Positions 1-10,800 of a stretch of DNA of 64,000 nucleotides are shown here, one piece after another (positions within the stretch are counted from its first letter, which is position 1; every line of letters begins with the position of its first letter). Position numbers and translations under genes: made by a program. This DNA comes from Paraburkholderia hospita (GTDB taxonomy: Bacteria > Pseudomonadota > Gammaproteobacteria > Burkholderiales > Burkholderiaceae). The stretch is taken from NCBI RefSeq assembly GCF_002902965.1, contig NZ_CP026106.1, positions 682,001 through 746,000 of the forward strand, in the 5' to 3' direction. The notes below the pieces were generated by a model. It was not told the origin of the DNA and searched no databases. It saw nothing but the letters and a program-made list of their open reading frames with translations.

Positions 1-467
1 GCGGCTTGCAGCGTCGTAAACGATACGTTTTTTTACGCCACTGATGCGCTGTGTGTCGCCAGCGCCAATCTGGCGCAAACCCATGGTGCGCAAGGCCACT
101 AACGGCCTTTATCGAAGAATCGCGGGGGTTCCGGGGTGGATTATCCTGGCACTCAAGAATCGCGCCCGTCAAAAAAGAAACGTTTTTAAAATCTCGGGTT
201 TCTTCTTAGCAATATTCGCTAATTGTTTGAATTAAAAGCGATTGTAAAACCCCTCATTTTGGGAAACCGGCGCAATGCCGGTTTATGCGTTTCAAACGCG
301 AAACATAAAACGTAGGTAATTACCCTCATTTTTCCATTCCGCATCACGGGAAATGTGAAATTTCTTTAAATTTCAATGCCTTACATGCATGGCATCGCCT
401 ATGCGACACGGCGAGCCGGATTGGTGCAGTCTGCCAGCCCGCCCCCCATCTCCTCCAGGAGGATTCC
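1..467. other. Non-coding leader region upstream of the Gly-rich export locus
   Basis: No convincing gene is present. The region is AT-richer than its surroundings. It contains two adjacent small palindromes (264-284, seven-base stem AAACCGG/CCGGTTT; 287-299, GCGTTT-C-AAACGC), a ten-base palindrome GGTAATTACC at 315-324 and a candidate sigma-54 promoter at 390-405. The only sizeable ORF (44-235) has no ribosome-binding site and a composition unlike a real protein. The region most likely serves as the control region of the gene starting at 468. Confidence 0.6.
390..405 (+). promoter_or_regulatory. Candidate sigma-54 (-24/-12) promoter
   Basis: TGGCATCGCCTATGCG keeps the invariant GG (391-392) and GC (403-404) of the -24/-12 consensus at the correct spacing, with mismatches at less conserved positions. 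Initiation would fall near 416, about 50 bases before the first Gly-rich gene. This is a consensus match only; no upstream activator site was identified. Confidence 0.35.
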
Positions 468-1697
468 ATGCGCAAAACTCTACTGGCGTCCGCAGCAGTC
501 ATCGCCTTGGGCTGCAGCGGCTACGCAATGGCAAACCCATGCAGTGATAGCGATTCATCCTGCAACCAGAAGTCATACAGCGGGAGCAACACATCGACAA
601 ACTCGGCGACATCCGCTCAAACCAGCACCACGGGCAACAACGCAAATGAAATTACGACGGGTGCGAGGGTCGCGCAAGATTCGTTCAACAGCACCAAGAT
701 CGTCGCAGTGAGCCGTCTGTCCGGGTCTGTATCGGGCGTAAGCGTTTATGGCATTGGCAACCATGCCTATAACGACGGCAATGCGAACGGCGGACGCGGC
801 GGCAGCGGCGCGAAAGGCATAGGCGGCAAGGGTGGCAGCGCATTGGCGATCGGCGGTGACGGCGGCTACGGCGGCAATGGCGGCAAGGCCATAGCTGGCG
901 ACGGCGGCAACTCCAGGGCATCGGCTGGCGATGGCGGCAACGCCAAGGCCTATGCCGGCGACGGCGGCAATTCCAAGGCCTACGGTGGCAAGGGCTCTGG
1001 CAGTGGCGGCGACGCATGGGCCAAGGGCGGCAGCGCGTACGCTGGATCGGCAGCGGCAGGCGGCGACGGACACGGCTCCGGCAAGGGCGCAGGTCTCGCG
1101 CTCGGTGCGGGCGCTGGGCTCGCAGGTAGCGGCGATGTGCACTCGAAGGCCAATGGCGGTGGCGGTAGCGCATCGTCGGCGAGCGGCGCAGCGACTGGCA
1201 CGGGTACGGGCACGGCAACGGCGAGCGGCTCGGGCACGGGTACGGGCACGGGCGGCGCAGGCACGTCTGGCGCAGCAACGGCTACGGCTGGAACGGGCAC
1301 CGCTACGGGCGGCGCAGGCACAGGCTCAGGCGGCGCAGCGACGTCGGCGGCAGGTGCAGGCGGCGCAGCGACGGCTACGGCAGGCGCAGGCGGCACGGCA
1401 GGCTCGACGGCCGGTAACGGCGGCAGTGCGACGGGCGGCGCAGGCGGTGCAGGCGGTGCAGGCGCAGCAGCCGCGGCGACGGCAGCAGCCGGCGGCGCGG
1501 GCTCGGGCGGCTCAGGCGGTGCAGGCGGTGCAGGTGGCGCGATCGGCGTCGGCACGGGTGACTTCAGCATGGCCAACACCATGACGAGCGTCGCTCAGTC
1601 GGCAGCGGGCATCCTGGTCGCCAACCAGAACAGCGGTATGGCTTCGCTGGTGCAACAGGCCGTCACCGTTCAGGCAAATCTGAGCGTTGGCCGCTAA
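468..1697 (+). CDS. Secreted Gly/Ala-rich repeat protein 1 (candidate surface amyloid/adhesin)
   Basis: 409 residues. A Sec signal peptide ends at AMA-N (about residue 22). A short Ser/Thr/Asn-rich region with two Cys follows, then a conserved block (about 55-105, QDSFNSTK and VYGIGN), then about 250 residues of PGRS-like low-complexity sequence: AGDGGNSKA-type repeats, then long GGAGGAG/TGTGT tracts. The C-terminus is non-repetitive, with NQNSGMASLVQQ and final VGR. AGGAGG at 457-462 fixes the start. The gene is followed 17 bases later by a paralogue. The position beside a C39 peptidase and a FapF-like barrel suggests a fibre-forming exported protein; this is inference. Such low-complexity proteins are often given misleading names in annotation. 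Confidence 0.85.
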   Translation: MRKTLLASAAVIALGCSGYAMANPCSDSDSSCNQKSYSGSNTSTNSATSAQTSTTGNNANEITTGARVAQDSFNSTKIVAVSRLSGSVSGVSVYGIGNHAYNDGNANGGRGGSGAKGIGGKGGSALAIGGDGGYGGNGGKAIAGDGGNSRASAGDGGNAKAYAGDGGNSKAYGGKGSGSGGDAWAKGGSAYAGSAAAGGDGHGSGKGAGLALGAGAGLAGSGDVHSKANGGGGSASSASGAATGTGTGTATASGSGTGTGTGGAGTSGAATATAGTGTATGGAGTGSGGAATSAAGAGGAATATAGAGGTAGSTAGNGGSATGGAGGAGGAGAAAAATAAAGGAGSGGSGGAGGAGGAIGVGTGDFSMANTMTSVAQSAAGILVANQNSGMASLVQQAVTVQANLSVGR

Positions 1698-1714
1698 TCC
1701 AATAGGAGGCTTTC

Positions 1715-2944
1715 ATGCGTAAGACACTTTTGGCATCAGCAGCCATCGTCGCGCTGGGCTTTAGCGGCTATGCGATGGCCAACCCCTGCGCGAATGGCGA
1801 CTACTCGTGCAACCAGAAGTCGGGCAGTGGCGATAACTCCCTGTCGAACACGGCGTCGTCGACCCAAGGCAGCACGACGGGCAACAACGTCAACGAAGTG
1901 ACGGGACACTCGAAGGTCTCGCAGGACTCATGGAACAACACGAAGACCGTGGCCGTCAGCAAGCTTGACGGCACCGTGAGCCATGTGAGGGTCACTGGCA
2001 TCGGCAATGTCGCGACCAACTACGGCAACGTCAATGGCGGCAAGGGCGGCGACGGCGCCAAGGGCATCGGCGGCAAAGGCGGAAGCGCCGGCGCTGTCGG
2101 TGGCTATGGCGGCGACGGCGGCAATGGCGGTCGTGCCATTGCCGGCGACGGCGGCTGGTCGAAGGCATCGGGTGGCGATGGCGGCTACGCGAAGGCGTCG
2201 GGCGGCGATGGCGGCTGGTCGAAGGCATCCGGCGGCAAGGGCTACGGGAGCGGCGGTGACGCTGGCGCGAAGGGCGGCAGTGCAGGAGCAGGCACGCTTG
2301 CCTATGGCGGCTACGGCAGCGGCAAGGGCGCGGCACTCGGCGCTGGAGCTGGTCTCGGGCTTGGCGCAGCCGGCAGCGGCGATCTGTCCTCACGTGCGGG
2401 CGGCGGCGGCGGCACGGCCACCTCGAACAGCGGCGCAGCGTCGGGCTCGGGCAGCGGCTCGGGCAGCGGCACGGCAACCGCTTCGGGTAGCGGCACGGGC
2501 GGCGCAGCCACGGCAGGCGCGGCGACCGCGACGGGCGGCGCAGCGACGGCATCGGGCGGCGCAGGCACGGGCACGGGCGGCGCGGCGACGTCGACGGCAG
2601 GTGCAGGCGGCGCAGCCACCGCGTCAGCGGGTGACGGTGGCGCAGCGACGTCGACGGCAGGCGCTGGCGGCTCGGCAACAGGCGGTGCTGGTGCAGCAGG
2701 CGCAGCAGGCGGCGCGGCAACGGCTTCGGCTGGAGCAGGCGCAGCAGGTTCGGGTGGCGCAGGCGGTGCAGGCGGCGCTGGTGGAACAGTCACGATGACG
2801 ACGGGCTCATTCGACATGTCGAACAACATGGCGAGCGCGGCTCAGTCGGCAGCTGGCGTGATGGTTCTGAACCAGAACAGCGGTATGGCGTCGCTCGTAC
2901 AGCAGGCTGTCACTGTGCAGGCAAACCTGGCTGTCGGTCGCTAA
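1715..2944 (+). CDS. Secreted Gly/Ala-rich repeat protein 2 (paralogue of protein 1)
   Basis: 409 residues, the same length as its upstream neighbour. The signal peptide is nearly identical (MRKTLLASAA), the NPC...SCNQK cysteine pair, the QDSWNNTK block and the NQNSGMASLVQQ...VGR C-terminus are conserved, and the middle is again Gly/Ala-rich. Its repeats read GDGGWSKAS/GDGGYAKAS, so an aromatic residue replaces the Asn of protein 1. AGGAGG at 1704-1709 supports the start. The pair looks like a tandem duplication followed by divergence, as expected for major and minor (nucleator) subunits of a fibre such as FapB/FapC or CsgB/CsgA. That assignment is inference. Confidence 0.85.
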   Translation: MRKTLLASAAIVALGFSGYAMANPCANGDYSCNQKSGSGDNSLSNTASSTQGSTTGNNVNEVTGHSKVSQDSWNNTKTVAVSKLDGTVSHVRVTGIGNVATNYGNVNGGKGGDGAKGIGGKGGSAGAVGGYGGDGGNGGRAIAGDGGWSKASGGDGGYAKASGGDGGWSKASGGKGYGSGGDAGAKGGSAGAGTLAYGGYGSGKGAALGAGAGLGLGAAGSGDLSSRAGGGGGTATSNSGAASGSGSGSGSGTATASGSGTGGAATAGAATATGGAATASGGAGTGTGGAATSTAGAGGAATASAGDGGAATSTAGAGGSATGGAGAAGAAGGAATASAGAGAAGSGGAGGAGGAGGTVTMTTGSFDMSNNMASAAQSAAGVMVLNQNSGMASLVQQAVTVQANLAVGR

Positions 2945-2965
2945 CTGACGTGAAGGACAGTTAGC
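2940..2965 (+). promoter_or_regulatory. Hairpin overlapping the stop codon of Gly-rich protein 2
   Basis: Perfect eight-base inverted repeat GCTAACTG / CAGTTAGC with a ten-base loop. The TAA stop (2942-2944) lies in the left arm. There is no T-run, so it is not a standard terminator. It could stabilise the upstream mRNA or attenuate read-through, setting high subunit and lower processing-protein expression. Confidence 0.4.
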
Positions 2966-3146
2966 GTCGATAAGTCGTTGTGTGATGTGCCGTGGGGCGT
3001 TCGCGCTCCACGGCTCCTGTTCCATCGTTCCGGCGTACGGGGTAAGCGCGCCGGGCGAAGGTCGCACAAATTGCACTTCGCAGGACGCTGCCGCACGCGC
3101 CGCAAGGCCGTTGCAGCACGGATCGGCGAAGCACCAGGAGACAACC

Positions 3147-3602
3147 ATGCAGGCGTTCAAACGCATTGCGAAGGTGGTACTGCCTGTCGTTATCGGACTG
3201 CCTTGCTTTGCAGCCTATGTTTCTGCCGGCGAACTGCGTTCTCCCGTGCAAGCGGATACGTCGATCGCCCCCGTTGTGACAGCCGCTCCAGGCGTGAGTG
3301 CGCTGAAGGCCCCGACAGCTGCTGCATCCCCTGCACCGGCGCCCGCCGCCGACGCGACCTTCGGTGTCGCGATGTCGGCCGAGCAGCTCGATGCGCATCG
3401 CGGCGGCGAAGCCGTCTTCAACGACATGAACCTGCGCGGCACGGTCGCGAACAATACCGCGCGCAACGTGGACACCGGGTCGAACATGATCACGGGCGGC
3501 TCGTTCTCGAACGCGAGCGGCTTGCCGACCGTGATACAGAACACGGGCGCGAACGTGCTGATCCAGAACGCGACGATCGTCAACGTGCGCTTCGGGGAAT
3601 GA
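3147..3602 (+). CDS. Small secreted protein with internal double-glycine processing motif
   Basis: 151 residues; the start is chosen for CAGGAG seven bases upstream of ATG 3147. A Sec signal peptide (about residues 1-26) is followed by an Ala/Pro-rich spacer, then MSAEQLDAHRGG with the Gly pair at residues 86-87. This matches the spacing of the bacteriocin leader consensus LSxxELxxIxGG. The remaining 64 residues are Asn/Thr/Val-rich (NNTARN, VIQNTGANVLIQNATI), a composition seen in beta-solenoid and amyloid-like proteins. The stop is three bases before the C39 peptidase gene, implying tight coupling. It is probably a substrate of that peptidase. No named family is recognised. Confidence 0.8.
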   Translation: MQAFKRIAKVVLPVVIGLPCFAAYVSAGELRSPVQADTSIAPVVTAAPGVSALKAPTAAASPAPAPAADATFGVAMSAEQLDAHRGGEAVFNDMNLRGTVANNTARNVDTGSNMITGGSFSNASGLPTVIQNTGANVLIQNATIVNVRFGE

Positions 3603-3605
3603 GCG

Positions 3606-4319
3606 ATGAAACTTCATGGAGCCCTTCAGGGAGCCTTTCATGGAGCCGTGTGGCTGCTCGCGTGCGCGTTGACGGCGGCAACCCCGGCGCGCGCCGACCC
3701 CATTACGATCTACGAACCGTCGGGCGCCGGTTACGCGATGCACGTCACGAGCCTGAAAGAGGCTCGCTTCAAGCGCACCATCAAGCAGCAGTTCGACTTC
3801 AGTTGCGGGTCCGCTGCCGTGGCGACGCTGCTTACGTTTCAATACAACTATCCGGTGAGCGAGCAGACCGCATTCCAGGAGATGTTCGAGAACGGCGATC
3901 AGGCGAAGATCCGCACTGAGGGCTTCTCGTTGCTCGACATCAAGCGCTTTCTCGAGCGGCGCGGGTTCATCGCGGACGGTTATGAGCTGCCGCTGCAAAA
4001 GCTCGTCGAAACCAACACGCCCGCGATCGTGCTGATCAGCGAAAGCGGCTATCACCATTTTGTCGTGGTGAAAGGGTTGAAGAACGACCGCGTACTGATC
4101 GGCGATCCCGCAACGGGCACGCGTCCCCTGCCGGTGAAGAGCTTCGAGACGAAATGGGAAGACCAGGTCCTGTTCGTCATCCATAACAAACCTGGCGTCG
4201 GGATCTTCAACGATCCCGTCGACTGGCGAGTCGCGCCGCCCGCGCCGCTCTATACGGGCGTCAATCGCGATGGTCTGTTCTTCACCGTCATGCCGAAGCA
4301 TGGCGCGAGTGATTTCTGA
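3606..4319 (+). CDS. Periplasmic C39-family cysteine peptidase (FapD-like)
   Basis: 237 residues. The signal peptide ends near ARA-DP (residue 30). The C39 catalytic set is visible: Gln61/62 as oxyanion-hole candidate, nucleophile Cys67 in QFDFSCGSA, His150 or His151 in SGYHHFVVVKGL, and Asp167 in IGDPATG. It is a stand-alone peptidase: no ABC or membrane domain is fused, unlike bacteriocin exporters. It lies between two secreted proteins that carry double-glycine motifs, so processing of those proteins in the periplasm is the simplest role. FapD of the Pseudomonas Fap system has the same architecture. Confidence 0.88.
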   Translation: MKLHGALQGAFHGAVWLLACALTAATPARADPITIYEPSGAGYAMHVTSLKEARFKRTIKQQFDFSCGSAAVATLLTFQYNYPVSEQTAFQEMFENGDQAKIRTEGFSLLDIKRFLERRGFIADGYELPLQKLVETNTPAIVLISESGYHHFVVVKGLKNDRVLIGDPATGTRPLPVKSFETKWEDQVLFVIHNKPGVGIFNDPVDWRVAPPAPLYTGVNRDGLFFTVMPKHGASDF

Positions 4320-4327
4320 GGGCCATC

Positions 4328-5839
4328 ATGAGAACCGAGACCCGAAAACTCGCCGGCATTGCCACGATGGTATGTGGTTCGATGGTGACGTTCGGCGCAC
4401 ACGCGTTCGAACAGGGCGCGCCTGCTGCGGCGCCGGTGGTCGCGCCGGATGTCGCGGGCGCAGCGGTCGAGCCGCTGGTGTTGCGCGACGCCGCGTCTGC
4501 GGCGGATGCGACGGATGCCATTACGCAGGCTGTCGTCGATGCATTGTCCACGCAAAAGCCGCGCGCATTTTCCGACGATGGGGACGCCGACGGCATGCGT
4601 CACGTGCCCGTGTCGTACGCGGCGCCGATTGCCGTTGCGACACCGCGCCGGGACGCTGCTGACGAAGCGGATAGCGCGGCGAAGCCGGATGCGAATGACG
4701 AAGCGAGTCGCGTAACGAACGAAGCCGTCATCAACGAAGCGCTGTATGCAGTCGATGCTTCGTCGACGCCGTCTTCGTCTTCGTCTCCACAAGAAAACGA
4801 TGTGCTCGCACAGCGCGATGCGGTTGAGCACCAGGATGCGGCCGACGTAACCGCGGCCGCAACGCCCATAGCGCCCATAGCGCCCGCACTCGCGCAAGAA
4901 GCCGAAGCGCCCGCCAAACCACTTCCGGTGTCGTATGCGGCGCCGATCGCGGTTGCCGCGCGCAAAGGTGAAAGCACTGAAAAGACCGAAAAGGCCGAAG
5001 CGCCACGCGCACAGCAGGTAGAAGAACGCGCGCAAGCGCAATTGATGCGGAATGAACAACTGACTCTCGATGCAACGCCGACACCGCCCCCCGTGTCGCC
5101 CGCGCATGAAGCGCCGGTTGCGAATGAACGCGTAATCGTCAAGCCGCCCGTTTCCTATGCGCGACCGGTTGCCGTGCCTGTTTCGCAGACGGCAAAGAGC
5201 GTGCAGAACGATTCGACGGCGTCGACGAATACATCGGTGCAAACAACAGCCGGGCAACCGCAGATCAAAGAACGCGCCGCGCCGCCCGCGCAGGCACAGG
5301 TCAAAGCGCCGCTTTCCTATGCGGCGCCCATTGCCGTGCCTCAAGCGTCGCGCAACGACACGCCCCCCGAACGCGGTCACGAAGTCAAAGCAAGAGCGGA
5401 CTCAGAAGATCCGAACTGGTCATCGAAAACGACAGTCGCCATCAGCGAAGAAAAACTCGACACGATGCGCGGCGGCTTCGATGTGGCAAACGGCCTGAAG
5501 GTCTCGTTCGGGGTGTCGAGGATGGCAGTCGTGAACGGCAATCTCGTCACGCAGACCAGCTTCAACATTCCGGACCTGAGCAACATGACGACGCAGCAGG
5601 CGCAATCGCTCGCCGCGGCGAACATCGGGTCGCTGCTGCAAAACGGTGGCGGCAATATCGCGCAGCAGGGCTCGGTGCAGGGCCTGTCGGGCGCGGTGAT
5701 CCAGAACACGCTCAGCAACCAGAACATTCAGGCGCTGACGACGATCAATGCCTCGGTCAATTCGTTGGGGCTATTCAAGAGCATGAATCTGGGCGCGACC
5801 TTGAACAATGCATTGATGAATTCAGTCCGGCCCAGATAG
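4328..5839 (+). CDS. Secreted Pro/Ala-rich protein with four PVSYAAPIAV repeats and a double-glycine motif
   Basis: 503 residues; the signal peptide ends near AHA-F (residue 26). Residues 27-370 form a low-complexity Ala/Pro/Glu/Asp spacer punctuated by four copies of a ten-residue element (PVSYAAPIAV twice, PVSYARPVAV, PLSYAAPIAV). Then comes ISEEKLDTMRGG with the Gly pair at 382-383, again fitting the double-glycine leader consensus. A 120-residue C-terminal part follows, rich in Asn, Gln, Ser and Thr (VIQNTLSNQNIQALTTIN). The C-terminal part shares VIQNT...IQ...T..N spacing with the 151-residue protein. It is the last gene of the plus-strand group and is followed by a strong terminator. 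No family is recognised; the layout fits a propeptide-bearing fibre component. Confidence 0.8.
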   Translation: MRTETRKLAGIATMVCGSMVTFGAHAFEQGAPAAAPVVAPDVAGAAVEPLVLRDAASAADATDAITQAVVDALSTQKPRAFSDDGDADGMRHVPVSYAAPIAVATPRRDAADEADSAAKPDANDEASRVTNEAVINEALYAVDASSTPSSSSSPQENDVLAQRDAVEHQDAADVTAAATPIAPIAPALAQEAEAPAKPLPVSYAAPIAVAARKGESTEKTEKAEAPRAQQVEERAQAQLMRNEQLTLDATPTPPPVSPAHEAPVANERVIVKPPVSYARPVAVPVSQTAKSVQNDSTASTNTSVQTTAGQPQIKERAAPPAQAQVKAPLSYAAPIAVPQASRNDTPPERGHEVKARADSEDPNWSSKTTVAISEEKLDTMRGGFDVANGLKVSFGVSRMAVVNGNLVTQTSFNIPDLSNMTTQQAQSLAAANIGSLLQNGGGNIAQQGSVQGLSGAVIQNTLSNQNIQALTTINASVNSLGLFKSMNLGATLNNALMNSVRPR

Positions 5840-5856
5840 AAGCCTGAAAAAAGAAA

Positions 5857-5888
5857 CTCGCGACGCTGGGGAGGCGTCGCGAGTTTTT
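5857..5888. terminator. Bidirectional intrinsic terminator between convergent genes
   Basis: Perfect ten-base stem CTCGCGACGC / GCGTCGCGAG with a seven-base loop, followed by TTTTT on the plus strand and by GTTTCTTTTTT on the minus strand. It separates the 503-residue protein gene from the convergent outer-membrane protein gene. Confidence 0.85.
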
Positions 5889-5919
5889 GTTTCGATAGAG
5901 GCGTTGCGAGCGAACCAGG

Positions 5920-7362
5920 TTAGAACTGGATCGGCATGCGGAACGTCAGCGTGAGATCCGGCGTGTCGCGCGTGAGGCCGGCGCCGAGCGAGAAGTTGAG
6001 CGTCGTCTTCGGCGTGAGGCGGTACGAGTAGCCGACGAGCAGCGTGCCGAGTATCACGCGCACCGAACCTGGAACGGTCGATCCGTTCTGCTTGGTCGGC
6101 AGCACGATGCTCTGGTCATAGCCGATACTGAACGAAGCCTTTTCGTTCAGCGCGAGGCCCATGCCGATATTGAAGCCATAGATATCGCCGGGCTGGATCT
6201 TGCCGACGAAATCGGTCTCGCCGTTCAGGATGTGCAGGCTCAGGTCGCTGCGGGCAAAGCTGTGCAAGTAGCTGAAGTTGCCGAAGAACACGACCGGGTC
6301 GCTCGGGAACAGCCACGTGAGACCCGGCTGGATCGCATAGAAACCGGTGCCCGTCGGCTGTTCGAGCGGCAGGCCCGTGCCTGTCGTATTGCCGATGCAG
6401 CGCGTCACGCAATCGGTCACGACGTCGAACGGGCTCTTGCCCGTGGCCGTCTTGAAGCGCAGCCAGCCGATGTAATAGAACTTGTCCGGGCCGCCCTCGT
6501 TCAGCTGGTAGCGCATCGTCATTTCGACGTCGCCGATGCCGTGGCCGCTGCTACCGAAGACGTTGTCCTGCGCCGAGCCCGTGAAGATCTCGCGGCTGAC
6601 GGTGTCGTTGGTCGAATAGACATACGGCACGCGCACTTCGACTTCCATCCGGTTCGTAATGCCGTAACGCGCGGCAACACCGCCCGTCAGCACGTTCGAC
6701 TTGATCTCACGCACGTCGATCAGGCCGATCAGCAAGGCGGGAATGATCGTGTAGCCAACCAGCGCGACACGGTTCGACGAAGAATAGCCGAACTGGAACG
6801 AAGGTTCGAGCACGAACTTGTTCTTCGGCGTGAGCACACCGGGCTGATCGAAGATCGGCGCGACGGCAGGCGGCGCGGTGTCGGGGATGGGCGCCTGGCC
6901 GACAGGCTGGACCTGTTGCTCGCCGCCTGCGTTTTGCGCCATGTTGATCACAGGCGCGGGTGCCGCGCCCGTCGCGGCGCCGGCTGTTGCACCCGTTGCT
7001 GCGCCCGCCGTTGCGGCGTCGGCGGTATTGGGCGCTGCGTCTGCATTGCCGCCTGGTGCCGCGCTCTGCGCAACACCCGTGGCGGGGGCTGCGCCCGAGC
7101 CGGGTTGGCCCGTGCCGCGCGTCACGTCGAGCATGCGTGAATCGAGTGCCTTGCTCAACTGCTGGAATTGCGCTTCTTCTTCCGCGATTTTGCGCTTTAG
7201 TACATCGAGTTCCTTGATACGGTTGTTCAGTTCCTGGCGAAGGGTTGCGATATTTTCTTGTGCGGTTTGATCTTGAAGCGATTGCGCATGAGCTTCAACG
7301 TAAAAGAGAAGCATCGTTGCGTAACTGATCGTCCGCACATGTCGAAATGGCTCGCGCTTCAT
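5920..7362 (-). CDS. Outer-membrane coiled-coil/beta-barrel protein (FapF-like exporter)
   Basis: 480 residues from ATG 7362, chosen for an upstream GGAG and an immediate signal peptide (MKREPFRHV...EAHAQ). An earlier in-frame start lacks both. About residues 28-75 form a heptad-patterned coiled coil (TLRQELNNRIKELDVLKRKI). An Ala/Pro/Gly-rich linker follows to about residue 180, then an amphipathic beta-strand region ending in Phe (RMPIQF), typical of a barrel. This signal-coil-linker-barrel order is that of FapF, the amyloid transporter of Pseudomonas. The convergent position with the secreted-protein genes supports an export role for them. The homology is judged by architecture and remembered motif style, not by a search. 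Confidence 0.75.
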   Translation of the reverse strand: MKREPFRHVRTISYATMLLFYVEAHAQSLQDQTAQENIATLRQELNNRIKELDVLKRKIAEEEAQFQQLSKALDSRMLDVTRGTGQPGSGAAPATGVAQSAAPGGNADAAPNTADAATAGAATGATAGAATGAAPAPVINMAQNAGGEQQVQPVGQAPIPDTAPPAVAPIFDQPGVLTPKNKFVLEPSFQFGYSSSNRVALVGYTIIPALLIGLIDVREIKSNVLTGGVAARYGITNRMEVEVRVPYVYSTNDTVSREIFTGSAQDNVFGSSGHGIGDVEMTMRYQLNEGGPDKFYYIGWLRFKTATGKSPFDVVTDCVTRCIGNTTGTGLPLEQPTGTGFYAIQPGLTWLFPSDPVVFFGNFSYLHSFARSDLSLHILNGETDFVGKIQPGDIYGFNIGMGLALNEKASFSIGYDQSIVLPTKQNGSTVPGSVRVILGTLLVGYSYRLTPKTTLNFSLGAGLTRDTPDLTLTFRMPIQF

Positions 7363-7882
7363 GGGTCTGTTCTCCATGTCAGGCTTGCAGGTTCTACCCC
7401 GGTACACCTCGACAACAGGCCAGCGGCATCGACACGTCGAGTCGTTGTGCTGGGCATGAAGCAACCCCTTCGTATGACCGCTTTACGCGACACAAGAGCG
7501 TCTCCATGCTCGCGAATGGAATCGGTATTGGAACCGTGATTCGCTATTGGTATCTATTTCCAACTTGTGTTCATGCATCCGCAATAAAATCTTTAAAAAA
7601 TGACCGTCTATGGCTTTATCGCGGACCATAAAAGCCTAACGCATCGGTGCTGCCTACGCTAATAAGAAGAACCCTGGCCTGTGATGGTTAGCCAACAGAA
7701 CGAAGCATTTCGCATGGGGCTTCGCAACGCGTGATCCGCTGTGCGTACTTTCAATCGACACGCTTCTGTCACAGGCGCGAGCAAGCATGCGCGATGTGCG
7801 CATGCACAATCCGTTTCTGCTCAACGGGTGCATAATGCGCTTCAGTCTATGCAATCGATTGTCGCCCGTCGCGGAGGACGTC
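7363..7882. other. Divergent intergenic region between the barrel gene and glutamate dehydrogenase
   Basis: No credible gene. The region must contain the minus-strand promoter for the barrel gene and the plus-strand promoter for the dehydrogenase. A perfect inverted repeat GCATGCGC-N5-GCGCATGC at 7785-7805, about 80 bases before the dehydrogenase start, is the clearest operator or hairpin candidate. No good -10/-35 pair was assigned. Confidence 0.5.
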
Positions 7883-10800
7883 ATGCAAGCGAAGAACGAA
7901 GAAGCCGTTGCCCATCTGCTCAACGATGTCGTCGAATTCGCGCGAGGACGATTGCCCGAGCCCGCTTTCGCAGCTGTCGAGCCATTCCTGCGTCACTACT
8001 ACGACTTCGCGGACGCGGACGATCTGCAAAGCCGCGGCATCGCCGATCTCTACGGCGCCGCGATGGCGCACTGGCAAACGGCGCAACGTTTCGTGCCGGG
8101 CAGCGAACGTTTGCGCGTCTACAACCCGATTCTCGAACAGCACGGCTGGCACTCGGATCACACCGTCATCGAGATCGTCAACGACGACATGCCGTTTCTG
8201 GTGGACTCGGTTTCAATGGCCGTCAACCGTCTCGGTCTGTCGCTGCACTCCGTGTTGCACCCCGTATTTCGCATATGGCGCGGCAAGGACGGCGGCATCG
8301 AGCGCATCGCGCCCGGCGGCGCATCGAGCGACGATGGCCATTCGCAACTCGCGTCGTTCATTCATTTCGAAGTGGACCGCTGCGGCGATGCCGCGAAGCT
8401 CGATGCATTACGCAACGAGATCGCGAAGGTACTGGGCGATGTGCGCGCCTCCGTCGAAGACTGGCCGAAGATCGTCGAGATAGCGCGCACGACGATCCGC
8501 GACATGGCCACGCGCGAAACGAGCCCGGAAGGCGTCGAAGCGCGCGCGTTCGTCGAATGGATGGTCGCGGACCACTTCACGTTTCTCGGCCAGCGCGATT
8601 ACGAACTCGTTACGCATGACGGCCAGTACGGCTTGCGCGGTGTGCCGGGCTCGGGCTTCGGCCTCTTGCGCGAATCCTTGCGGGCTCAGGGCACGTCCGA
8701 AGTGACACCGTTGCCGGCCGCCGCCGCCGATATCATCGCGGGCGCGACGCCCATCTTTCTGACCAAGGCCAATTCGCGCGCGACGGTGCATCGGCCCGGC
8801 TATCTCGACTATGTCGGCGTGAAGCTCGTCGGGCCGGACGGCAAGATCAACGGCGAGCGGCGCTTTATCGGGCTGTATACGTCGACGGCTTATACAACGT
8901 CCGCTTCGGAAATTCCGATCGTGCGGCGTAAATGCGCGAACATCGTGCGGCGCGCGGGTTTTCTGCCGAAGGGGCATCTCGGCAAATCGCTGGTGACGGT
9001 GCTGGAAACGTATCCACGCGATGAACTCTTCCAGGCCGACGAGAACGAACTCTACGACACAGCGATGGGCGTGCTGCGCTTGCAGGAGCATCAGCGCACG
9101 CGGATGTTCGTGCGGCGCGACCGCTTCGACCGCTTCGTGTCGTGCCTCGCATTCGTACCGCGCGATAAATACAACACCGACTTGCGCCGGCGTATCGCCA
9201 GGCTGCTGATGAGCGCGTTCAACGGCACGAACGTCGAGTTCACGCCGCTGCTGTCCGAATCGACGCTCGCGCGCATTCATTTCGTCGTGCACGCGGAGCC
9301 GGGCGCGATGACGGATGTCGATACGCGCGAACTCGAACAGCGGCTCATCCAGGTGTCGCGCCGCTGGCAGGACGATCTCGCAGATGCCTTGCTCGATGCG
9401 TTCGGTGAAGAGCAAGGCAACCGCCTGTTGCAGCACTATGCGGATTCGTTTCCGGCCGGCTATCGCGACGACTATCCGGCGCGCACGGCGGTGCGCGATA
9501 TCGAGCTGATCGAGCGCGTGCAGGGCACCGAGCAGATCGCGATGAACCTGTACCGGCCCATCGAAGCGGGGCCGCGCGCGTTCCGTTTCAAGGTGTATCG
9601 CGTGGGCGATCCGATCGCGCTGTCGCGCAGCCTGCCGATGCTCGAACATCTGGGCGTGCGCGTCGATGAAGAGCGGCCTTACCTGATCGAGGCGCCGGGT
9701 GCCGCGCCCGCGTGGATTCACGACTTCGGCCTCGAACTGGCCGACGACACCGAGTTCGACATCGAGCGCGTGAAGGGCCTGTTCGAAGACGCATTCGAGC
9801 GGGTCTGGACAGGCGATATCGAAGACGACAACTTCAACCGCCTCGTGCTGCGCGCGCAACTGAGCGCGCGCGAAGTGATCATCTTGCGGGCCTACGCGAA
9901 GTATCTGCGCCAGGTGGGCTCGACGTTCAGCGACGCGTATATCGAGCGTGCGTTGACGGGCAATCCCGCCATCGCGCGGATGCTGGTCGAACTGTTCATT
10001 GCGCGGTCCGATCCGGCCCCTGCCACGACGCGCGAGACACGCGTCGAGCGGCTGCTGAAGACGATCGAAGGCGCGCTCGACGAAGTGCCGAACCTCGACG
10101 AAGACCGCATCCTGCGCCAGTTCCTCGGCGTGATCAACGCGACGCAGCGCACGAACTACTACCGGCGCGACGAGAGCGGCAAGCCGAAACCTTATCTGTC
10201 GTTCAAGTTCGATCCCGCGAAAGTGCCGGGCCTGCCCGAGCCGAAGCCGATGTTCGAAATCTGGGTGTATTCGCCGCGTGTCGAAGGCGTGCATCTGCGC
10301 GGCGGGCGTGTCGCGCGCGGCGGCTTGCGCTGGTCCGACCGCCGCGAGGATTTCCGCACGGAAGTGCTCGGTCTGATGAAGGCGCAGATGGTGAAGAACG
10401 TCGTGATCGTGCCGGTGGGATCGAAGGGCGGTTTCGTCGTGAAGAATCCGCCGCCACCGACCGATCGCGAATCCTGGATGCGCGAGGGCGTTGCGTGCTA
10501 TCAGACGTTCCTGCGCGGGCTGCTCGACCTCACCGATAACCGGGTGGGTAGCCAGATCGTGCCGCCGCCCGGCGTCGTGCGGCATGATCCCGACGATCCG
10601 TATCTCGTCGTCGCCGCCGACAAGGGCACCGCCACGTTCTCCGATTTCGCGAACGCGATCTCGCAGGAATACGGCTTCTGGCTCGACGACGCATTTGCCT
10701 CGGGCGGCTCGGTCGGCTACGACCACAAGAAAATGGGCATCACCGCGCGCGGTGCGTGGGAGTCGGTGAAGCGCCACTTCCGCGAAATGAGCGTCGATAC

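Follow-up and report, generated by a model that had tools for sequence, protein, structure and literature searches.

A Fap-like locus in Paraburkholderia hospita with Gly/Ala-rich subunits and predicted double-glycine leaders

The stretch of DNA analyzed here (the window) comprises 64,000 nucleotides of Paraburkholderia hospita, positions 682,001 to 746,000 of contig NZ_CP026106.1, in a genome of 11.5 Mb in six contigs. Near its start lie six genes that the original prediction described as an export locus resembling the functional amyloid system Fap, and all six were recovered as described: two tandem genes for Gly/Ala-rich proteins (GA1 and GA2), two for further secreted proteins (P3 and P5), one for a C39 peptidase and one for an outer-membrane barrel protein (Table 1). 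The genes for P3, the peptidase and P5 are nearly contiguous, separated by gaps of 3 and 8 bases, and the barrel gene is convergent to the five plus-strand genes. Each of the six proteins has a signal-peptide-like hydrophobic start, as judged by eye.

Table 1. Features of the locus, in window coordinates (aa, amino acids; ORF, open reading frame).
Feature	Position	Strand	Basis
GA1, secreted Gly/Ala-rich (PGRS-like) subunit, 409 aa	468-1697	+	ORF, composition
GA1, N-half of proposed assembly core, residues 78-108	699-791	+	conserved residues; core match only once joined to C-half
GA1, Gly/Ala-rich stretch, read as core insert	792-1550	+	inference
GA1, C-half of core, terminal letters QNSGMASLVQQAVTVQANLSVGR	1551-1694	+	core profile match
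GA2, second Gly/Ala-rich subunit, 409 aa	1715-2944	+	ORF; identity to GA1
P3, small secreted protein, double-glycine leader and core-like mature part, 151 aa from ATG 3147	3147-3602	+	
P3, C39 leader, positions -15 to -1; GG at 3402-3407	3363-3407	+	leader pattern
C39, stand-alone FapD-like peptidase, 237 aa, predicted periplasmic	3606-4319	+	Pfam, NCBIfam
P5, secreted, FapE position; long variable spacer, then double-glycine leader and conserved mature part, 503 aa	4328-5839	+	
P5, C39 leader, positions -15 to -1; GG at 5471-5476	5432-5476	+	leader pattern
13-pair hairpin between convergent P5 and barrel genes	5854-5886	.	terminator scan
FapF-like barrel protein, 480 aa: likely coiled coil ~28-78, Ala-rich linker, beta-barrel 165-480	7362-5920	-	

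The peptidase matched the Pfam C39 model (E = 1.2e-20) and, among NCBIfam models, FapD (2.5e-40, 138 bits, short of the curated cut-off of 330) and FilB (4.3e-33). Its nearest chain in the Protein Data Bank (PDB) was a ‘Double Glycine Motif Protease domain’ (7.6e-08). The barrel protein matched NCBIfam FapF (9.6e-40, 136.6 bits, short of the curated cut-off of 700) and, more weakly, FilC (3.2e-13). In a plain sequence search of the PDB, residues 165–480 aligned to the solved FapF chains 5o67, 5o65 and 5o68 at E-values of 1e-26 to 1e-28, the next chain stood at 0.68, and none of the 12 matches at E ≤ 10 was another barrel. The FapF alignment (about 1e-27) rules out that the barrel is an unrelated porin and, with the FapD match, bears out the Fap-like part list. 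The coiled coil ahead of the barrel is likely, as judged from weak, sub-threshold matches to coiled-coil Pfam models. No Pfam or NCBIfam model matched GA1, GA2, P3 or P5 at E ≤ 1, and neither FilA (DUF6160) nor FadL-family FilD matched any of the six proteins at that threshold.

An ordinary fap locus is present elsewhere in the host genome. It lies on contig 1 at about 968–977 kb (L146), and its peptidase gene, at 971 kb, adjoins genes for FapC (NCBIfam, 6.9e-15) and FapF (1.3e-106), with a FapE-like gene downstream. Its FapD scored 209 bits and its FapF 357, both under the curated cut-offs of 330 and 700, and its FapC is likewise under its own; since the FapD of an ordinary fap locus also falls below 330 bits, the NCBIfam cut-off is evidently strict. 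The two peptidases of the host genome are 34% identical over 183 residues, and the two barrels 28% over 512 columns. A peptidase tree of 65 rows, for which the program flagged several long branches, put 28 rows of the window type in one clade (support 99/98), separate from the FapD of fap loci and from the FilB type. With its own peptidase clade, and with an ordinary fap locus present in the host besides, the window locus is Fap-like yet distinct.

A peptidase scan of one genome per species for 84,980 species returned 160 relatives, and the 80 best of these were carried forward (L035–L114); these 80 named loci, fetched by peptidase alone, make 81 with the window. P3, the C39 peptidase, P5 and the barrel occurred together in 81/81 (the barrel of L114 is a 120-residue piece at a contig end), and their joint recurrence in loci fetched by the peptidase marks the gene set as one beyond chance. 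The profile search recovered an upstream Gly/Ala-rich protein in 77 of the 81; it overlooked those of L103 and L105, and the last two loci, L036 and L083, are truncated by the start of the contig. Eight loci have the tandem pair. The barrel gene runs in the same direction as the others in 52 loci, converges on them in 28 and lies upstream in one. The predicted synteny in related genomes thus extends to 80 named loci, and among these best 80 of 160 are loci from Paraburkholderia, Burkholderia, Trinickia, Cupriavidus, Ralstonia, Pandoraea, Massilia, Pseudoduganella, Dyella, Luteibacter, Frateuria and Rhodanobacter. The earlier proposal of a distinct system of Burkholderiaceae therefore holds in its first part, given the separate clade, but not in its restriction to that family as usually drawn, given Massilia, Pseudoduganella and the last four genera; the gene set spans Burkholderiales and Rhodanobacteraceae. 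The closest named relatives by peptidase, within the same 80, are Burkholderia and Paraburkholderia isolates at 93–96% identity. Of 144 genomes of the genus, 29 list a window-type peptidase (at least 67% identity), and all 29 have a second peptidase at 32–37% identity, whose copies we inspected in two genomes, the host and G056.

P3 and P5 carry a feature that had gone unnoticed, a leader lying well after the signal peptide and ending in Gly-Gly. For each of the 81 loci, P3 and P5 were picked by profile and the leader site was then placed by a pattern requiring Leu or Ile at -7 (loosely spaced in P5) and Gly-Gly, and in P5 additionally Arg or Ser at -3 and Phe, Met or Tyr at +1. With sites so placed, all 81 P5 leaders have Val, Leu or Ile at -12, Leu at -7, Arg at -3 and Gly-Gly, together with Trp at -15 in 58, Phe at +1 in 78 and Met or Leu at -4 in 54. 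All 81 P3 leaders have Leu at -7 and Gly-Gly, with Arg at -3 in 66/81 and Val, Met or Leu at -12 in 76/81; position -4 is looser, being mixed in P3, with His or Tyr in 27/81. The motif [LM]xxx[RS]GG occurs in 81/81 P5 and 76/81 P3 proteins, against shuffled means of 2.9 and 1.4 of 81 (50 rounds), and where 37 of the 81 P5 ends were aligned, its L, R, G and G never varied. PMC10885120 gives the leader rule for C39 peptidases as hydrophobic residues at -4, -7 and -12, with Phe at -15 in ComA, and a cut after GG, GA or GS. The P3 and P5 leaders follow this rule in Gly-Gly and in the hydrophobic -7 and -12, with -4 looser, and the catalytic Cys, His and Asp are retained in 81/81 peptidases and in 43/43 other C39 ORFs. 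These leaders are new here, and they appear to tie the peptidase to its likely substrates.

An AlphaFold model of the P5 end had a predicted local distance difference test score (pLDDT) of 68 and placed a helix at residues 10–16, just before the Gly-Gly (local pLDDT 57–61); a PDB fold search with this model returned nothing at E ≤ 0.001. Scanning the genome’s DNA for an LDxxRGG pattern gave 56 matches, against 38 for the backward control, and was uninformative. The P5 of L060, L063, L079 and L080, which come from three Cupriavidus and one ‘Burkholderiaceae bacterium’, carries the leader as two or three repeats; in a fifth candidate, L048, the pattern match looks like chance. The spacer of the window P5 (4328–5431) has four PVSYAAPIAV-like repeats, at residues 94, 200, 274 and 328, which sit where the Cupriavidus-type P5 has its WKPVA...RGGF leader repeats and are perhaps decayed leader copies.

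The leader geometry recurs in Fap itself. A 2017 paper (PMC5557850) describes FapD as an active periplasmic protease whose target ‘remains unclear’, states that Fap proteins are without canonical C39 sequences, and reports that mutating the Cys of FapD blocks secretion of FapC and that FapE is N-terminally processed, with peptides absent for its first ~70 residues while FapA–FapD were covered throughout. From 16 fap neighborhoods, 15 of other genomes and the host’s own, we collected 17 FapE genes, all adjoining their fapD; five of the loci (L167–L171) have a FapD above the NCBIfam curated cut-off. A pattern that required positions -12, -7, -3, -2 and -1 and left -4 and +1 free placed a leader in 17/17, with Leu, Val or Ile at -12, Leu or Met at -7, Gly at -2 and Arg (11) or Lys (6) at -1, followed at +1 by Tyr or Phe in 16/17. 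P5 stands in the place of FapE and shares with it the leader and the subsequent FG segment: the P5 profile scored 35.4 against a profile of 14 FapE over 27 columns, both profiles being trimmed just before the motif, and the maximum in 40 column shuffles was 17.4. From this alignment we predict that the target of FapD is FapE and that the cut falls after GR or GK, before Tyr or Phe. The missing FapE N-terminal peptides fit such a cut, with a gap longer than predicted.

Leaders of this kind could also be placed by pattern in related proteins. Six FapA genes of the 16 fap neighborhoods have Leu at -12, Phe, Ile or Tyr at -7 and Val, Ile or Met at -4, ending in SG or AG, and five FilA/DUF6160-like proteins of eight Fil-type neighborhoods have Met or Leu, Leu, and Val or Ile at the same positions, ending in GQ. 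Fifteen further loci (L147–L161) comprise six that the tree puts in the window’s clade and nine of sister types. The pattern placed P5-like RGGF leaders in 13 of them and P3-like leaders in 11; L161 has a P5-like leader with Ala at -12, and L160 looks broken.

The original prediction called the subunits PGRS-like and not FapB/FapC-like, which agrees with a Gly plus Ala content of 65% over GA1 residues 105–360 and with the lack of an NCBIfam FapC match to GA1 or GA2 at E ≤ 1. GA1 and GA2 are 71% identical over residues 1–171, and 76 of the 77 profile-found Gly/Ala-rich proteins are 302–620 aa long, the remaining one, of 900, being probably an over-extended ORF. Sister-type subunits (seven proteins from L147, L148, L149, L156 and L159) have at their C-terminus an unbroken core of ~70–90 residues. 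A profile of this core matched the C-terminus of 71 of the 77 Gly/Ala-rich proteins (domain E < 0.01; reversed, 0/77) and 80 of the 81 P3 proteins (E < 1e-3; reversed, 0/81), and the Gly/Ala-rich C-terminus scored 35.7 against the P3 profile, with 40 shuffles at 15.5 or below. Once the C-half and N-half were joined in a script (60 of the 77 proteins), the core matched at 97.5% probability over 66 columns. We infer that the Gly/Ala-rich stretch is an insert in a conserved assembly core, which is the weakest link of the argument. The core or P3 scored 17–21 against FapB/FapC repeats, with shuffle maxima of 13–20, and neither the Gly/Ala-rich C-terminus nor the joined halves matched these repeats. 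Profile comparisons of P3 with P5 and of the Gly/Ala-rich proteins with P5 were discarded, shuffled columns scoring above 130, and iterated profile matches to FapB and FapC were set aside, as strict uniterated profiles fail to reach them.

Taken together, the locus is probably a distinct secretion and assembly system of the FapD/FapF type for a Gly/Ala-rich surface polymer. In the mechanism that we propose, Sec would carry all parts into the periplasm, where the C39 peptidase would bind the amphipathic leader of P3 and P5 through the hydrophobic -12, -7 and -4 positions and, as the leader and the retained catalytic residues suggest, cut after Gly-Gly. By homology with Fap, the freed mature P3 and P5 would be FapE-like starter or accessory subunits that license export through the FapF-like barrel. 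GA1 and GA2 would be the bulk subunits, with the C-terminal core that they share with P3 and the sister-system subunits carrying export and co-assembly, and the Gly/Ala-rich insert forming the exposed, length-variable body of a fiber or coat. In true Fap, FapD would correspondingly cut FapE after Gly-Arg or Gly-Lys. More tentatively, as a generalization that we judge slightly more apt to fail than to hold, a single rule may cover Fap, Fil, the window system and the sister types: a C39 peptidase would act on a bacteriocin-type leader (-12/-7/-4, Gly at -2) in FapE, P5, P3 or FilA, removal of that leader after Sec export would license a FapF-family barrel, and a PGRS-like body inserted in the shared core would make a further fiber class.

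The value of the window-type locus is that it retains the canonical C39 site and reveals the proteins that carry it, so that an exact site can be predicted for FapE from the alignment. It also represents a widespread system of Burkholderiales and Rhodanobacteraceae with a very different body protein, suggesting that one export core may carry quite different low-complexity cargo. A literature search, in which subscription journals and preprints were thinly covered, found no paper on this locus. A 2018 review places fapD and fapF homologues side by side in five more phyla (PMC6173800), and a 2013 study extends its FapD and FapF models to two larger families (PMC3792158). Both fit a wider family of which the window system would be one branch.

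Several points weigh against this reading. The 81 loci are kin and not 81 independent events. The leader counts mean that every protein has such a site, its position not having been found blind, and the FapE counts at -12, -7, -3, -2 and -1 were partly preset by the pattern. A strict profile search of P5 against FapE gave no match, and the part that aligns is 27 motif-trimmed columns. In PMC5557850, FapA is unprocessed and the FapF linker is also named as a possible FapD target; the published FapE gap of ~70 residues runs past the predicted cut, near residue 40 in L168. On the subunit side, the N-half of the Gly/Ala-rich proteins alone matched the core in 0/77, joining the halves in 60 of the 77 favors a core match, AlphaFold gave GA1 no fold (mean pLDDT 36), from which no structural reading was drawn, and the likeness of the core to FapB/FapC repeats is suggestive and not claimed. 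The analysis establishes the gene set, its synteny, the homology of peptidase and barrel and the conservation of the leaders and of the C-terminal core; Sec export, Gly-Gly cutting, barrel licensing, the surface polymer and its amyloid nature are inferred.

Among the alternatives, the one that survives best overlaps with the proposed assembly system: the Gly/Ala-rich proteins may be adhesins or coat proteins that pass a FapF-like barrel without being amyloid subunits. The PGRS-like composition, the length range of 302–620 aa and the lack of a predicted GA1 fold would suit this, yet the Asn/Gln-rich C-terminal core common to P3 and the sister subunits suggests assembly and not passage alone, and we regard the alternative as rather unlikely. 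More improbable still is a divergent fap operon in which GA1 and GA2 are FapB and FapC drifted to Gly/Ala-richness, P3 is FapA and P5 is FapE. It draws on the same part list, on the FapD and FapF homology, on the FapE position and FapE-like start of P5 and on a suggestive P3–FapB alignment (scoring 20.8, where the best of 60 shuffles reached 19.6). It is at odds with the separate peptidase clade (99/98), the missing FapC match, the ordinary fap locus in the host genome, the second peptidase in all 29 genus genomes and the place of P3, which lies between subunits and peptidase and not first. Least credible of all, with perhaps a slim chance, is that the Gly-Gly leaders are uncut docking signals and the peptidase a chaperone: six FapA genes have the hydrophobic -12, -7 and -4 with SG or AG and FapA is nonetheless reported as unprocessed in PMC5557850, but the catalytic residues are invariant, FapC secretion is abolished in the FapD Cys mutant of that same paper, and Gly-Gly is present in 81/81 of both P3 and P5.

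The proposed FapD/FapF-type system resembles Fap, described in Pseudomonas, in its C39 peptidase, its FapF barrel, its secreted low-complexity subunits and the FapE-like protein of equal leader geometry directly 3′ of the peptidase. It differs from Fap in its Gly/Ala-rich subunits, in Gly-Gly where FapE has GR or GK, in the extra leader protein P3, in the peptidase clade and in a barrel gene that is convergent in 28/81 loci. The putative pilus system Fil (FilA–FilD), named from Acinetobacter, likewise combines a C39 peptidase with a FapF-family barrel, and FilA/DUF6160-like proteins show the -12/-7/-4 pattern ending in GQ. Unlike Fil, the window has no match to a DUF6160 protein or a FadL-type FilD at E ≤ 1, and Fil-type peptidases begin with a membrane-anchor-like helix, as judged by eye. 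With double-glycine bacteriocin export, by the C39 domains of peptidase-containing ATP-binding cassette (ABC) transporters, it shares the leader rule, the catalytic residues and the nearest solved chain, whereas the window peptidase stands alone with a signal-peptide-like start in a locus without an ABC transporter. Mycobacterial PE_PGRS proteins are rich in GGxGG. The Gly/Ala-rich proteins are like them in this composition only, and GA1 and GA2 have no Pfam match at E ≤ 1 and thus no PE domain.

The neighborhoods compared above have peculiarities of their own. In the host’s fap locus L146, an extra ORF upstream, of 217 residues as called, has its own leader-like ALDDQVLARQRGG, and a similar one occurs in G056 (L180). 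L172 has two tandem fap units with two FapD and two FapE genes, and the FapB of L167–L170 has an [IV]DDSV[LM]xQQ stretch that is leader-like and without glycines. Among the sister types, L148 has subunit, P3, C39 and P5 duplicated in tandem as a block, and L160, with short peptidase and barrel ORFs, is apparently a decaying copy. The Fil-type neighborhoods (L162–L165 and L183–L186) were all grouped by the peptidase tree except L163, in which NCBIfam and Pfam identify FilA (DUF6160), FilB, FilC, a FadL-type FilD, a MalM-like protein and a MalT-like regulator; an LDDxxLxxVTGQ leader-like pattern occurs in proteins of five of the eight.

No sigma-70-like promoter was found in window positions 1–7900. 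A sigma-54 activator adjoins the locus in 3 of the 81 fetched loci. Sigma-54-like sites lie upstream of the Gly/Ala-rich gene in 8/69, five of these falling between -79 and -92, and random windows have such sites at a rate of 8%; sigma-54 control is not a general feature of the locus, and the window has no such site. The hairpin in the gap separating the P5 and barrel genes is T-rich on both flanks and is likely a shared terminator of the two. It was scored on the minus strand and is the longest of nine terminator-like sites, a number in no excess over the 8.2 in shuffles.

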